DNA from: Cenococcum geophilum 1.58
Lineage: Eukaryota; Ascomycota; Dothideomycetes; Gloniales; Gloniaceae
DNA: 64,000 nucleotides
Reading direction: 5' to 3'
Assembly: GCA_001692895.1 (NCBI GenBank)
Contig: KV748240.1
Coordinates: 689,239-753,238 of the forward strand
In this document: one piece after another, positions 59,817 to 64,000 of the stretch
How positions within the stretch are numbered: the stretch's first letter is position 1
Layout of the letters: each line of letters starts with the position of its first letter
The notes under the pieces: model-generated
The model's input: only the letters and a program-made list of their open reading frames with translations
Databases searched by the model: none
Told to the model about the DNA's origin: nothing
Translations under genes and position numbers: made by a program

Positions 59817-60738
59817 ATGAAGACTTCAATTGCTCTCCTCGCTGTCGGTGCGAGCTTCGCCTTTGCCCAGAGCATCAGTGACCTGCCTCCATGCGGAGTA
59901 AGTTTACACTCGCTTTTATACGCCCTCTTTGCATAACTTTAAGCTCGATTAATTCCTATCTTTATCTCCAATTGCTTGTCACCACACGCAACCCCAAGCT
60001 AACAGCTATCTCCTACAGCAAACATGCATAAACAGCATGCAGCAAATCGCTATTTCTGAGTTCGGCTGCGCTGCAGGTGATGTCAAATGTTATTGCACAG
60101 ATTCGAATTTCGGTTATGGCATTCGTGACTGCTCAAACGAGTCATGCTCTTCCTCTGACGCCGCCAAAACCATCTCTTTCGGCGCGGACTATTGCGCAGG
60201 TTAGTGAATTGCTCCACTTCCATGAGTGCTCTCGCGCGTCGCCAGCCACTTACTAAAATGTCTTACAGCTGCTCTCGCTTCTGCTTCTGCCTCTGGCTCC
60301 GGCTCTGCCTCGAGTGTCCTGTCCTCCGCCTTGGCTACGGCTACGGCCACGGATACCGGTGCTTCAGCCAGCGGTGCCTCAGCTACTGGTAGCGGTGCTC
60401 AAAGCACTGCCATCACTATTCCTCTCGTTGCAACTGTCTCTGCTAACGGCACCACCTACGCCACCATTACCGGCTTCTCAACTGTGTATAGCTCACTCTC
60501 TGGCGCTGTCACCTCCGCTGCTTCATCTGCCGCATCAAGTATCAGCTCTGCTGAAGCTTCCGCTAGCTCTGTCACTGCCAGTCTTGCCAGCTCTGCCGCA
60601 TCCGTCGCCAGCTCGGCTGAATCTGCCGCTAGCGCCGCCACCGCTTCTGGCTCTGCTACTGCGACCGGTGGTGCTGCCATGATGACCGCCGCTCCCATCC
60701 TTGGTGCTGTTGGCATGGCTGCTCTTCTCTTGATCTAA
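59817..60738 (+). CDS. CFEM-domain, GPI-anchored secreted protein
   Basis: Three exons, 59817-59897, 60019-60199 and 60269-60738, give 243 aa, with introns of 121 and 69 bp. Signal peptide at residues 1-17 (M-K-T-S-I-A-L-L-A-V-G-A-S-F-A-F-A). The CFEM domain at 20-90 has all eight Cys (26, 30, 44, 51, 53, 65, 70 and 86) and the Asp just before the C-x-C (D48), where CFEM haem ligands sit. A long Ser/Ala/Thr-rich stalk (about 90-220), likely O-glycosylated, precedes a hydrophobic tail (P-I-L-G-A-V-G-M-A-A-L-L-L-I) typical of a GPI signal. CFEM proteins are fungal cell-wall or membrane proteins; some capture haem iron, others act in host interaction. Which role applies here is not determined. 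Confidence 0.95.
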
Positions 60739-61737
60739 ACCATATCTCCTCTCTTAATGGAAAAATCTCGAGTGGTTGAAGATAATGGACGACAGATATG
60801 GAGTGGGAGATTACTTTTGACTACGGTTGGTTTGAGGTGCATTGGTGCATTTGCATATGGTTAATAACCTGGTACATGACTTTTCTTCTTCCCCGCCTTT
60901 CCCCTAATACATATCATGGCATGGCGATACGAATCTTTATGCCCTCGACTGTACTTTAATGGCACGCGCGCTAGGCGCTTTTGATACCCTCTCTGCGGAT
61001 CGTCTGGATGAGATGAGATGAGTAATAGATCAATCGTGTAGTGGTAGATGAAATAAAAAGTAATACTAATATCCGCTTCCTGCATCTCTTGTGATGTCGC
61101 TTGATCTGGTACATTCTTTAGGAAGCTTCGTAAAGGTGTTTGAACGAGTTATCCATTAGGTAGTATCCCGAAAGTGGGTGGCGTTTTCACGGCGTTCACG
61201 GTGATTGCAGTAAATCTATCGAATTGCTGATCTGCAACCTGTGAATGCTTCCATCTTCGCAATGACCGACTTGGGCCTATCAAAAACCTGCGTTCTGTGA
61301 TAATGAACCAGATCACCCGTCACGCTCGCTTCGCGCCTGCCAGTTTCGGAGCTTCTGTTCTGTTGTCTCGCGAGAGATTCTTCTTCTGATCTTTCCCGGA
61401 TTGAAAATCCTGGCATTCAAAATTTTAATCCTTTTGTAGCTTTTTCTAGGCACCTTGGCATATTCGTGGTTTCAAATAGCGCCAGTTAGGCTAGAGTTGG
61501 ACACAGGTTTCGTGAAGGAGGTGAATCGCCATTCGGGATCTTTTCGCCTCTACCCAATTTCGAGCTTCTATTATGCTGTTACAGTTGATTGCAAAGCTGG
61601 CTACCCTCGAGCACACGCTCAAATTGCTTCGCCTCCTTGAGCAAGGATGCCTTGCACCCATCCTACTAAATCCGGCCAAGCGTTAAACTGCAGCGCCATT
61701 ATCCAAACCACCTGCGTTACACCTAACGTAGGCGATA
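60739..61737. other. Intergenic region between CFEM gene and foldback element
   Basis: No gene recognised; frames of 60-75 aa on both strands have no domain. Confidence 0.5.
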
Positions 61738-61839
61738 GGGTTATGACGGTCGGCATAGTTATGACGGTTCCTAACAAATTTCGTCTGTGCGCAGTTTTGA
61801 TGTTCAAAACCGTCATCACTATGCCGACCGTCATAACCC
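61738..61839. mobile_element. Foldback/MITE-like perfect-arm inverted repeat
   Basis: Two 32-bp arms (61738-61769 and 61808-61839) are near-perfect reverse complements, beginning GGGTTATGACGGTCGGC, separated by a 38-bp loop. There is one mismatch in the arms. The total of 102 bp lies about 140 bp beyond the stop of the HeLo gene. It could be a very short MITE or a structured transcription-end element. The arms contain an internal repeat (GTTATGACGGT twice). Confidence 0.65.
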
Positions 61840-61981
61840 CGGCTCGCATTTACCTGACGGATAACGCAGCCTTTTCCTTTTCTTTTCGCAGAGCATTATC
61901 AGCCGTACAAGCGACGTGGATAATCGCGTAATACCTACCTCATTCAATGCGACAATCCCAAAAGTAGGCAAATACAAACCC

Positions 61982-62857
61982 TCAGTCAAAAAAAAAACCC
62001 CTGCCTCCATAACTATCCCCAACATGAACCTTGGACTGTCCGATTGCCTCCAAGTCTCCAATCTTGTTCATCGTGGTTCCATCCCTTGTACCGCTTGGCA
62101 CGGCCTGGGAAACATATTCATTCCCAACCTTCACCTTTGCCGATTCAGACAATTTCGCCTTCCCTATGCTATTGCCGCTTCCAAGTCGTTCAAGCTTCCC
62201 TACCGCTGCCGCTCTAAGAAGCTCATCTGTCTTAAGAGAAGCCTCTAACAACATCCGCAAGCTTGTTTCGTCTTGAACCTCACCAACCTCATCTTCAACG
62301 AGGCGCTTGTATGTTTCTTGCACCGGGAAGATCTTCTCCAACCCATCAAGAAGCTCCTGAATGTCGTCAATTAATCGTGAAAAGTATTTTTGTTTATATA
62401 GTGCCCAGGATATCTTTTTAGAAAGACCGGTGCTCTTCTGGCGCTTTCGCGTCAAGGCCTGGATTGTAGTGCGGAGGGCCATTATGCCTTGGTTTGTGTT
62501 CGTCCTTGGATCGAACACGGCCAAATCTTCTTCCCTGGCCCCCGATTTAAAATCGTATGACTGCGTATGTGCATCGCGGAAAAGCTTCAAGAGCTGCTCA
62601 AGGGTACGCTTCGCGGTGCGAGCCTCATCGGTGCTGGGATCGATGACGGCGAAGTCAGGGTTGTGGTCAATGTCCACGGCTGGTCCCCAACGTGAGAGCC
62701 GCAGTCGAGCAATGTCTAGTCGGATTTGGCATGTTTGGTAGTCGGTTCCGAAGTTTCGCCCAAGCTGAATGTACTCGAAACAGTCGACAGCATTGTTGAA
62801 GAGGCTAGCAACGCTCAAAGCGCCGGCAACGACGCCGAACGCTTCGGCCATAGTCAA
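61982..62857 (-). CDS. HET-S-like HeLo-domain protein with C-terminal amyloid motif repeats
   Basis: A single exon of 291 aa, close to the size of Podospora HET-s/HET-S. Residues 1-220 form a HeLo domain: N-terminal hydrophobic helix F-G-V-V-A-G-A-L-S-V-A-S-L-F-N-N, then V-D-C-F-E-Y-I-Q-L-G-R-N-F-G, D-Y-Q-T-C-Q-I-R-L-D-I-A, L-S-R-W-G, and the helical A-S-L segment E-V-Q-D-E-T-S-L-R-M-L-L. HeLo proteins permeabilise the cell membrane when activated, causing regulated cell death and heterokaryon incompatibility. Residues about 228-250 and 264-286 are two amyloid-type repeats sharing S-x-K-V-x-V-G-[ND]-x-Y, ending Y-G-G-R-G-F-F-F. It is divergent from a NACHT NLR bearing the same motif, 333 bp away, which strongly suggests a functional pair. 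The Met at residue 3 aligns with the family start and may be the true one. Confidence 0.93.
   Translation of the reverse strand: MTMAEAFGVVAGALSVASLFNNAVDCFEYIQLGRNFGTDYQTCQIRLDIARLRLSRWGPAVDIDHNPDFAVIDPSTDEARTAKRTLEQLLKLFRDAHTQSYDFKSGAREEDLAVFDPRTNTNQGIMALRTTIQALTRKRQKSTGLSKKISWALYKQKYFSRLIDDIQELLDGLEKIFPVQETYKRLVEDEVGEVQDETSLRMLLEASLKTDELLRAAAVGKLERLGSGNSIGKAKLSESAKVKVGNEYVSQAVPSGTRDGTTMNKIGDLEAIGQSKVHVGDSYGGRGFFFD
61985..62068 (-). other. Amyloid motif repeat R2 and C-terminal tail of HeLo protein
   Basis: Residues 264-291, with core Q-S-K-V-H-V-G-D-S-Y-G-G followed by R-G-F-F-F-D. The V-H-V-G-D is identical to the motif at the NLR N-terminus. An aromatic C-terminal tail after the Gly pair is the arrangement known from HET-s. 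Confidence 0.85.
62108..62176 (-). other. Amyloid motif repeat R1 of HeLo protein
   Basis: Residues 228-250, core S-A-K-V-K-V-G-N-E-Y. The spacing to R2 (the conserved Gly at 245 and at 280) is 35 residues. In the known amyloid fold such paired repeats stack as two rungs. Confidence 0.8.
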
Positions 62858-63190
62858 GAAGCTTGAAGAAGGGAGAGCGAGCGACAGCTCTGCACTTTTT
62901 AACGCTGATCAGATGGCCGTTAATACAGTACTCTGCGAAGGGGGAGAGAAAGCTTAAAAGGCATGATGCTACCTATGGCGTGCCACGTTTGGCGAGGTGC
63001 CAATGATTCCATGCCTGCAGCTCGTCGCCGCGCTAAACTCCAGCTGGACTTCTCCTTCAGCTATGGACCCCAACACCGTTATGCAGTGGGACGGCCTCGC
63101 TTGACCACAGTAAAGAAATCATCCACGGTCTGTCTGTGATGCATTATTGACTTCAAAAGGAGCAATTTTCGCAAGCGAAACACACTAAGG
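62858..63190. promoter_or_regulatory. Shared bidirectional promoter of the HeLo gene and NLR gene
   Basis: 333 bp between divergent start codons, normal composition, no RIP-type decay. Co-regulation of the two genes from this region is an inference. Confidence 0.6.
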
Positions 63191-64000
63191 ATGGTAAGCT
63201 CTGTTGAAACATTAAGAGCCGAAGGCCACTCGACAGTCCACGTCGGAGACAACGTTTACACGTCAAACGATCAGTGTTTAGCCGACCTGCGCTCAACCGA
63301 TCCCAGCGACGATAAGACGCGTATCGAACGAACTAAGGGTGGCCTCCTGAAAGACGCATACCGGTGGATCCTCAATCACGCGGACTTTCAGCGATGGCGC
63401 AACGACAAAGAGAGCCGGCTGCTCTGGATCAGAGGCGATCCGGGCAAAGGGAAGACAATGCTGTTGATCGGTATCATTGAGGAATTAGAGCAGCAATACA
63501 AGCAGCCCCGGGACGCTTGCCTTCTGTCGTATTTTTTCTGCCAAGGAACCGACTCTCGGCTCAACAAAGCAACAGCTGTCCTGAGAGGCTTGATCTACCT
63601 CCTGCTTACCCAGGAAGCATCGTTGATGTCGTATATACGAAAAAAATACGAGCGTGCGGGTAAGCAGCTCTTTGAGGACGTCAACGCATTCGACGCGTTA
63701 AGTAAAATCTTTACAAATATGTTGCAGGACCCAACCCTAAAGGGGGCATATCTGATTGTCGACGCGCTCGACGAGTGCGAGACGGGCCTGCCTCAGCTCT
63801 TGGGACTAATCGCACAAAGTGCGTCAACATCTCCTCACGTCAAATGGATTGTCTCGAGCCGCAACGAAGCCCATATCGAAGCGCGGTTGAGCCTTAACGG
63901 TGCACAAATGATGCTTAGCCTTGAACTTAACGCAGAGCATGTTTCACGTGCTGTCGAGATGTTTGTCGATTTCAAGGTGTCCCAACTTGCATCAATCAAG
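63191..64000 (+). CDS. NACHT-type NLR with N-terminal amyloid motif (NWD2-like), 3' truncated by the window
   Basis: An open frame of 270 codons runs from ATG 63191 to the window end with no stop, so only the N-terminal part is seen. Residues 3-23 carry the motif V-E-T-L-R-A-E-G-H-S-T-V-H-V-G-D-N-V-Y, matching the HeLo protein repeats. Then comes the fungal NACHT leader (K-G-G-L-L-K-D-A-Y-R-W-I-L, 49-61), Walker A G-D-P-G-K-G-K-T (82-89), C-x-L-L-S-Y-F-F-C (110-117), Walker B Y-L-I-V-D-A-L-D-E-C (187-196) and W-I-V-S-S-R-N-E (sensor). NLRs of this form bind a trigger through C-terminal repeats (WD40, TPR or ankyrin) that would lie beyond 64000. Role (inference): receptor that templates the HeLo partner through the shared motif. 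Confidence 0.93.
   Translation, partial: MVSSVETLRAEGHSTVHVGDNVYTSNDQCLADLRSTDPSDDKTRIERTKGGLLKDAYRWILNHADFQRWRNDKESRLLWIRGDPGKGKTMLLIGIIEELEQQYKQPRDACLLSYFFCQGTDSRLNKATAVLRGLIYLLLTQEASLMSYIRKKYERAGKQLFEDVNAFDALSKIFTNMLQDPTLKGAYLIVDALDECETGLPQLLGLIAQSASTSPHVKWIVSSRNEAHIEARLSLNGAQMMLSLELNAEHVSRAVEMFVDFKVSQLASIK
63197..63259 (+). other. N-terminal amyloid motif (R0) of the NLR
   Basis: Residues 3-23. H-S-T-V-H-V-G-D aligns with Q-S-K-V-H-V-G-D of HeLo repeat R2. It has no other known domain and precedes NACHT directly, as in amyloid-signalling NLRs. Confidence 0.85.

Follow-up and report, generated by a model that had tools for sequence, protein, structure and literature searches.

A divergent HET-S/NWD2-type gene pair in Cenococcum geophilum 1.58, a probable amyloid-signaling cell-death switch

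Introduction

Does the right-hand edge of the window analyzed here, a stretch of 64,000 nucleotides from Cenococcum geophilum 1.58 (C65:689239-753238; the genome comprises 177.19 Mb across 162 contigs), carry a complete cell-death switch of the HET-S/NWD2 kind? Published surveys provide the frame for this question. According to these, het-S homologs adjoin NLR genes with one N-terminal motif copy in all species analyzed (PMC3321046), and there are five motif classes, with an adjacent NLR for 98 of 155 HeLo-type proteins (PMC4518210). Ligand-dependent prion induction has been reported for a chimeric NWD2 (PMC4344463).

Among the Dothideomycetes, C. geophilum has been described as the sole mycorrhizal species (PMC5023957, PMC11799279). 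Published passages report an expansion of its HET-, NACHT-, and WD40-domain gene families and name no signaling route. In the main text of a review of the motif classes (PMC9815663), Cenococcum goes unmentioned. Among the papers listed, none seemed from its title and word counts to deal with the Cenococcum pair, although one (PMC12673336) contains the terms and supplementary tables could list the pair.

Two genes back to back

On the minus strand, an open frame (61982-62908) with an ATG at 62851 yields a HET-S-like gene (61982..62851) that encodes 289 amino acids plus a stop, with a HeLo domain and two HET-s repeats. On the plus strand, a frame from 63140 to 64000 with an ATG at 63191 begins an NWD2-like NLR gene, of which 63191..64000 lies in the window. 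The original prediction had placed a HeLo gene divergent from a NACHT NLR lacking a stop codon in the window, and the two frames, their orientation, and the NLR frame open to 64000 are as it described. The genes adjoin, with start codons 339 bp apart (gap at 62852..63190). Of the shared promoter that was also proposed, what stands is this common gap and nothing beyond it, so the promoter is a candidate.

Other features lie nearby. Just 3' of the HeLo gene, at 61735-61842, is a near-palindromic MITE-like element of ~105 bp that matches its own reverse strand at 77%; 40 of 86 candidate genome places were scored for it, and copies besides the element itself are 79 to 97% identical. At about 59840-60738, a gene encodes a CFEM-domain protein (PF05730, E = 9.2e-13, on 59953-60201) with a Ser/Ala-rich C-terminal part, by its looks likely cell-wall or GPI-anchored. 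Outside the window, ~11 kb beyond its edge, a minus-strand frame (L006:6191-9101) combines a CHAT domain (PF12770, E = 3.7e-35) with tetratricopeptide repeats that are nearly identical to one another; it is possibly another receptor or protease-type defense gene.

A HeLo protein with two C-terminal repeats

The minus-strand product matches the HeLo family PF14479 (E = 2.4e-52) and the prion-domain family HET-s_218-289, PF11558 (E = 2.5e-12; 47 bits, cut-off 32.2), each over its curated cut-off, which bears out the claim of a HeLo protein with two C-terminal repeats. As in the HET-S class, the HeLo domain, predicted to be a membrane-acting cell-death domain, is N-terminal (residues 6-201; 62249..62836, minus). 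It is followed by two 21-amino-acid HET-s repeats, both aligned with those of 48 homologs: R1 (residues 225-245; 62117..62179, minus) and, 14 residues past it, R2 (residues 260-280; 62012..62074, minus). The C-terminal tail (residues 281-289; 61985..62011, minus) contains a di-glycine and aromatic residues, and a tail of this type past the second repeat has been described (PMC4518210).

By sequence, the protein matches the HeLo chain 2wvn (4.3e-56) and the prion-domain chain 2kj3 (3.1e-5), and a HeLo fold is predicted. AF2 places strands at residues 227-229, 231-234, and 239-246 of R1 and at 262-264, 266-269, and 274-281 of R2, in matching order and spacing, although pLDDT in the tail is only 58-73 in the strand-holding blocks and 48 in the loop block. 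A two-rung tail is thus predicted from the AF2 strands together with the 2kj3 match. Structure comparison by VIA-align did not recover the solenoid; its rows covered mainly residues 11-210, with the tail outside. The most hydrophobic 19-mers of the protein sit at its N-terminus, which is only suggestive of membrane toxicity.

The protein has D23, N33, and Q86. Judged against chains 2wvn and 2wvo, the combination D23/N33 is neither that of HET-s (D23/P33) nor that of HET-S (A23/H33), so the allele type is not readable from these positions.

The protein is contained at 100% identity in database protein P0001 from the same strain, a model with 31 extra residues before HeLo (window 62852-62908 and upstream) that is probably a gene-model error. 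We prefer the MAE start because P0002-P0008 start there and because HeLo has been described as coming first in domain order, with exceptions that are possibly annotation artifacts (PMC3531502). Among the 120 homologs listed, 80 start with MAE or MSE at residue 1.

An NLR receptor that continues beyond the window

The receptor opens with a single motif, R0 (residues 1-21; 63191..63253, plus), followed by a short linker, an NPHP3_N/NACHT region (57-256), and 16 WD40 stretches. The NACHT domain proper (residues 76-256; 63416..63958, plus) matches PF05729 at 7.8e-14 and NPHP3_N PF24883 at 7.1e-36, and a P-loop, GDPGKGKT, can be read at 63434-63457 (plus). Extension of the contig past 64000, earlier set as a test, revealed C-terminal repeats and not an early end. 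The frame reaches a stop, reopens 30 bases on, and ends at L005:8605 (window 67366). With the rest of the NLR located there, the pair is complete as predicted, and the receptor has the NACHT and C-terminal repeat domains of NWD2.

Joined across a putative 57-nt intron (64793-64849, plus; L005:6032-6088), the NLR comprises 1372 residues. Many frame-keeping GT/GC..AG pairs are listed as alternatives; the one with GTCAGT..TAG borders was chosen because of its length, its branch-site-like GCTAAT, and the same break in the C56 and C49 paralogs, which favors an intron over damage. We take GCTAAT to fit the fungal branch-site consensus. Among relatives, P0242 continues a few residues beyond the intron place and then ends, and P0241 (568 amino acids, 16 members) stops near it.

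Fifteen aligned 42-residue WD repeats share a mean identity of 84% (minimum 74%, X omitted) and vary chiefly at positions 6, 7, 9, 25, and 34. Podospora nwd2 is likewise reported to have 42-residue repeats, near-identical save for four positions under diversifying selection (PMC4344463). No full-length copy of the window NLR was present among the best 120 of 4696 matches, and a search of solved-structure sequences with the first NLR frame gave no match at E<=1.

The R0 motif and its relation to the repeats

Does the NLR truly open with its partner's motif? We addressed this with a profile of 93 R1/R2 segments from 47 homologs (the window protein and its 94% relative were omitted). It scores R2, R1, and R0 at 41.2, 36.2, and 22.7 bits, respectively. 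Elsewhere in the NLR the highest score is -3.3 bits, and across all six frames of the window every other 21-mer stays at or below 5 bits. Not one of 20,000 shuffles of the first 60 NLR residues reached the R0 score (maximum, 12.6 bits), and so a single HET-s-type motif at the NLR N-terminus, as in NWD2, is upheld by the profile. PF17108 aligns to NLR residues 3-21 with E = 0.0076 but 16.6 bits, below its curated cut-off of 24.3. The scan of both proteins with amyloid-motif HMMs, which the original prediction had suggested, was therefore positive over cut-off for PF11558 in the HeLo protein and below it for PF17108 in R0. Its literal pattern, S-x-K-V-x-V-G-[ND]-x-Y, failed as a description of all three segments: it matches R1 only, and R2 and R0 deviate.

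R0 keeps the hydrophobic core positions and both glycines, but three of its conserved polar positions differ from the consensus: it has S3 in place of the ladder asparagine, T15 in place of a positively charged residue (K/R), and D20 in place of N. D at position 20 also occurs in R2. Relatives have K15 (P0241), N3 and R15 (P0242), or N3, K15, and N20 (P0243); P0241, which is 94% identical over the NACHT part, is perhaps an allele. Judging from these residues, R0 of strain 1.58 may be somewhat weaker. R0 is much nearer R2 than R1 (44 versus 12), as published for the motif class (PMC4518210). Its charged residues number 4 of 21, against 6 and 5 in the repeats, and the published drop in R0 is only slight here.

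Partner-specific co-variation between R0 and R2 was looked for and not found. The window R0 ranks its own partner's R2 15th of 49, and in three other presumed pairs the own R2 ranks 12, 22, and 45 of 49. Linkage among relatives is read from database listings, by contigs of equal length or by successive tags; in these listings P0011 and P0248 of Clonostachys are on different contigs. The argument from motif match thus holds at the level of class homology and is weaker than first put, given the three polar deviations and the rank of the partner's R2. We base the pairing on the neighboring position of the genes, on homology at the class level, and on its being the only such pair found in the genome, and not on fine co-variation.

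One pair in the genome

PF11558 has one match in the genome, the HET-S-like gene of the window. PF17108 has eight weak matches at E<=10, none over cut-off; the two best are R2 and then R0 of the window pair, 1.1 kb apart. HeLo yields 19 match rows at E<=0.01, with 18 outside the window pair, two of which are perhaps one gene. A second HET-S/NWD2-type pair was not found in the genome. These counts are of best candidates, exon by exon, and hence are lower bounds.

Two HeLo proteins of similar length (C41 and C39; L019 and L021) end in Ses_B PF17046, not HET-s repeats, and from this domain content there seems to be a separate second HeLo signaling channel. The genome also holds three NLR paralogs of the same NACHT type (L007, L008, and L009, on C8, C56, and C49). 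Next to the C8 paralog, whose WD array looks broken in frame, is a frame that by eye resembles a nucleoside phosphorylase; the C56 and C49 paralogs have WD repeats after the same break position as the window NLR. For NACHT_sigma (PF17106), a single match was found in the genome, at L038. It ends a frame that also looks nucleoside phosphorylase-like by eye, and the frame after this one has an NLR-like P-loop.

Receptor exchange behind a conserved motif

In a tree of 106 HET-S homologs, the Cenococcum protein falls in a 22-row group (SH-aLRT 100), and a separate 76-row group (SH-aLRT 98) includes Podospora appendiculata. Both groups contain proteins from Fusarium oxysporum and from Phialocephala. 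By what we take to be their classification, the fungi of the 22-row group are a mixture of Dothideomycetes, Sordariomycetes, and Leotiomycetes. Not counting P0001, 119 homologs were listed, and 14 of these had been left out as partial, extended, or odd. All relatives compared are database proteins.

The NACHT tree took 77 regions from 175 usable sequences and left out paralog C8; N-terminal labels were set by motif score, and by eye for P0169, P0219, and P0251. The R0 label needs nine changes on this tree, five of them forced by supported branches, against a shuffled mean of 18.7, a count that is approximate since metagenome proteins (P0249 and P0254) may have wrong starts. The first neighbors of the Cenococcum receptor are the R0 rows P0241, P0242, and P0245, together with two rows in which R0 was not seen, and this group next joins HET-domain NLRs (e.g., P0121). 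Five Fusarium/Ilyonectria R0 receptors group with the non-R0 Cenococcum paralogs C56 and C49. P0243 is in another NACHT group; the HET-S protein presumed to be its partner, P0004, shares 85% identity with that of Cenococcum. A Clonostachys R0 receptor ends in ankyrin repeats, and ankyrin-ended receptors have been noted for some species (PMC4344463).

These placements suggest that receptors were exchanged repeatedly behind R0, though some of the starts may be mispredicted. Tentatively, and on the doubtful side of even, we propose that R0 is a portable plug, such that executioners of one HET-S lineage could have been rewired to unrelated NACHT/repeat receptors by swapping everything downstream of R0.

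The proposed switch and its alternatives

We propose that the pair is very probably a two-gene amyloid-signaling cell-death switch of the HET-S/NWD2 kind. Its WD40 repeats would sense a ligand, upon which the NLR would oligomerize via NACHT and bring several R0 motifs together. R0 would then fold into a beta-solenoid rung and template the unfolded R1-R2 tail of the neighboring HeLo protein; the folded tail would disrupt the HeLo domain and free a hydrophobic N-terminal segment, and the HeLo protein would go on to damage the membrane of its own cell. Exposure of an N-terminal membrane segment of HeLo has been described (PMC3531502). This proposal draws directly on the genes, domains, motifs, and linkage, on the search that found no second pair in the genome, and on the predicted HeLo fold and two-rung tail, while oligomerization of the NLR, templating of the tail, toxicity, and the recognition of non-self or parasites as a role would carry over by analogy from Podospora. 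We count against it the S3, T15, and D20 residues of R0, the PF17108 score below cut-off, the rank of R2, and the putative nature of the intron.

The same R0 residues lend something to a different account, in which the two genes do descend from a genuine pair but have become partly decoupled in 1.58, with a drifted R0 that signals weakly or a HeLo protein that is mainly autonomous (e.g., a fusion-incompatibility factor). The consensus residues that P0241, P0242, and P0243 keep at these places favor it too. Nevertheless, strain 1.58 retains the hydrophobic core and both glycines of R0, as well as the P-loop and the reading frames, and R2 matches the R0 change with its own D at position 20; we regard decoupling as improbable. 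It is far less probable still that the genes are chance neighbors and that the NLR signals via another partner. The 18 other HeLo match rows mean that other executioners may exist, but the window is the only PF11558 place in the genome, the C41 and C39 HeLo proteins end in Ses_B instead, and adjacency is the published rule, with 46 adjacent pairs counted in 55 genomes (PMC4344463). Equally remote is the idea that R0 is a chance resemblance in an NLR that simply has no effector domain. The PF17108 score could be read that way, but the profile score and the shuffles led us to set it aside, and the motif also occurs near the N-terminus in 18 of 179 fetched NLR relatives, a figure that is not a prevalence, as part were fetched by an R0-aimed search.

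Comparison with known systems

Taken as a HET-S/NWD2-type switch, the pair is a further instance of a system already described in many fungi and, as a system, is not new. It documents an intact amyloid-signaling immune pair in C. geophilum. Hundreds of resequenced isolates of this species have been reported, and with them the locus could show co-variation of R0, R1-R2, and the WD repeats within one species, as well as how receptors swap behind a fixed executioner.

That this is the same system as HET-S/NWD2 is supported by the agreement of domain order, motif homology, divergent adjacency, and WD40 tail with publications. Shared with Podospora anserina, as far as described (PMC3321046, PMC4344463), are a HeLo protein with two 21-amino-acid repeats and an adjacent, divergent NLR with NACHT and 42-amino-acid WD repeats. 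The NLR motif spans residues 3-23 in P. anserina NWD2 and 1-21 in Cenococcum, and the gap is 0.6 kb in Podospora (PMC4344463) compared with 339 bp here. Cenococcum HET-S belongs to another clade than Podospora, for which P. appendiculata stands in, and its R0 deviates at three conserved positions, unlike the P. anserina pair.

HRAM1-class pairs of other fungi, as characterized in PMC4518210, have the same N at position 3 of R1 and R2 and the same hydrophobic pattern at positions 5, 8, 10, 16, and 18, plus G19; the 14-residue loop, by our own boundaries, is within the published 6 to 18. Unlike those pairs, this one resides in an ectomycorrhizal Dothideomycete, and its NACHT domain is nearer to those of HET-domain NLRs than to those of most other R0 receptors. 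HET-E and HET-D of Podospora, in turn, have a NACHT domain and WD-repeat array closely related to those of NWD2 (PMC4344463), and Cenococcum carries R0 where they carry an N-terminal HET domain.
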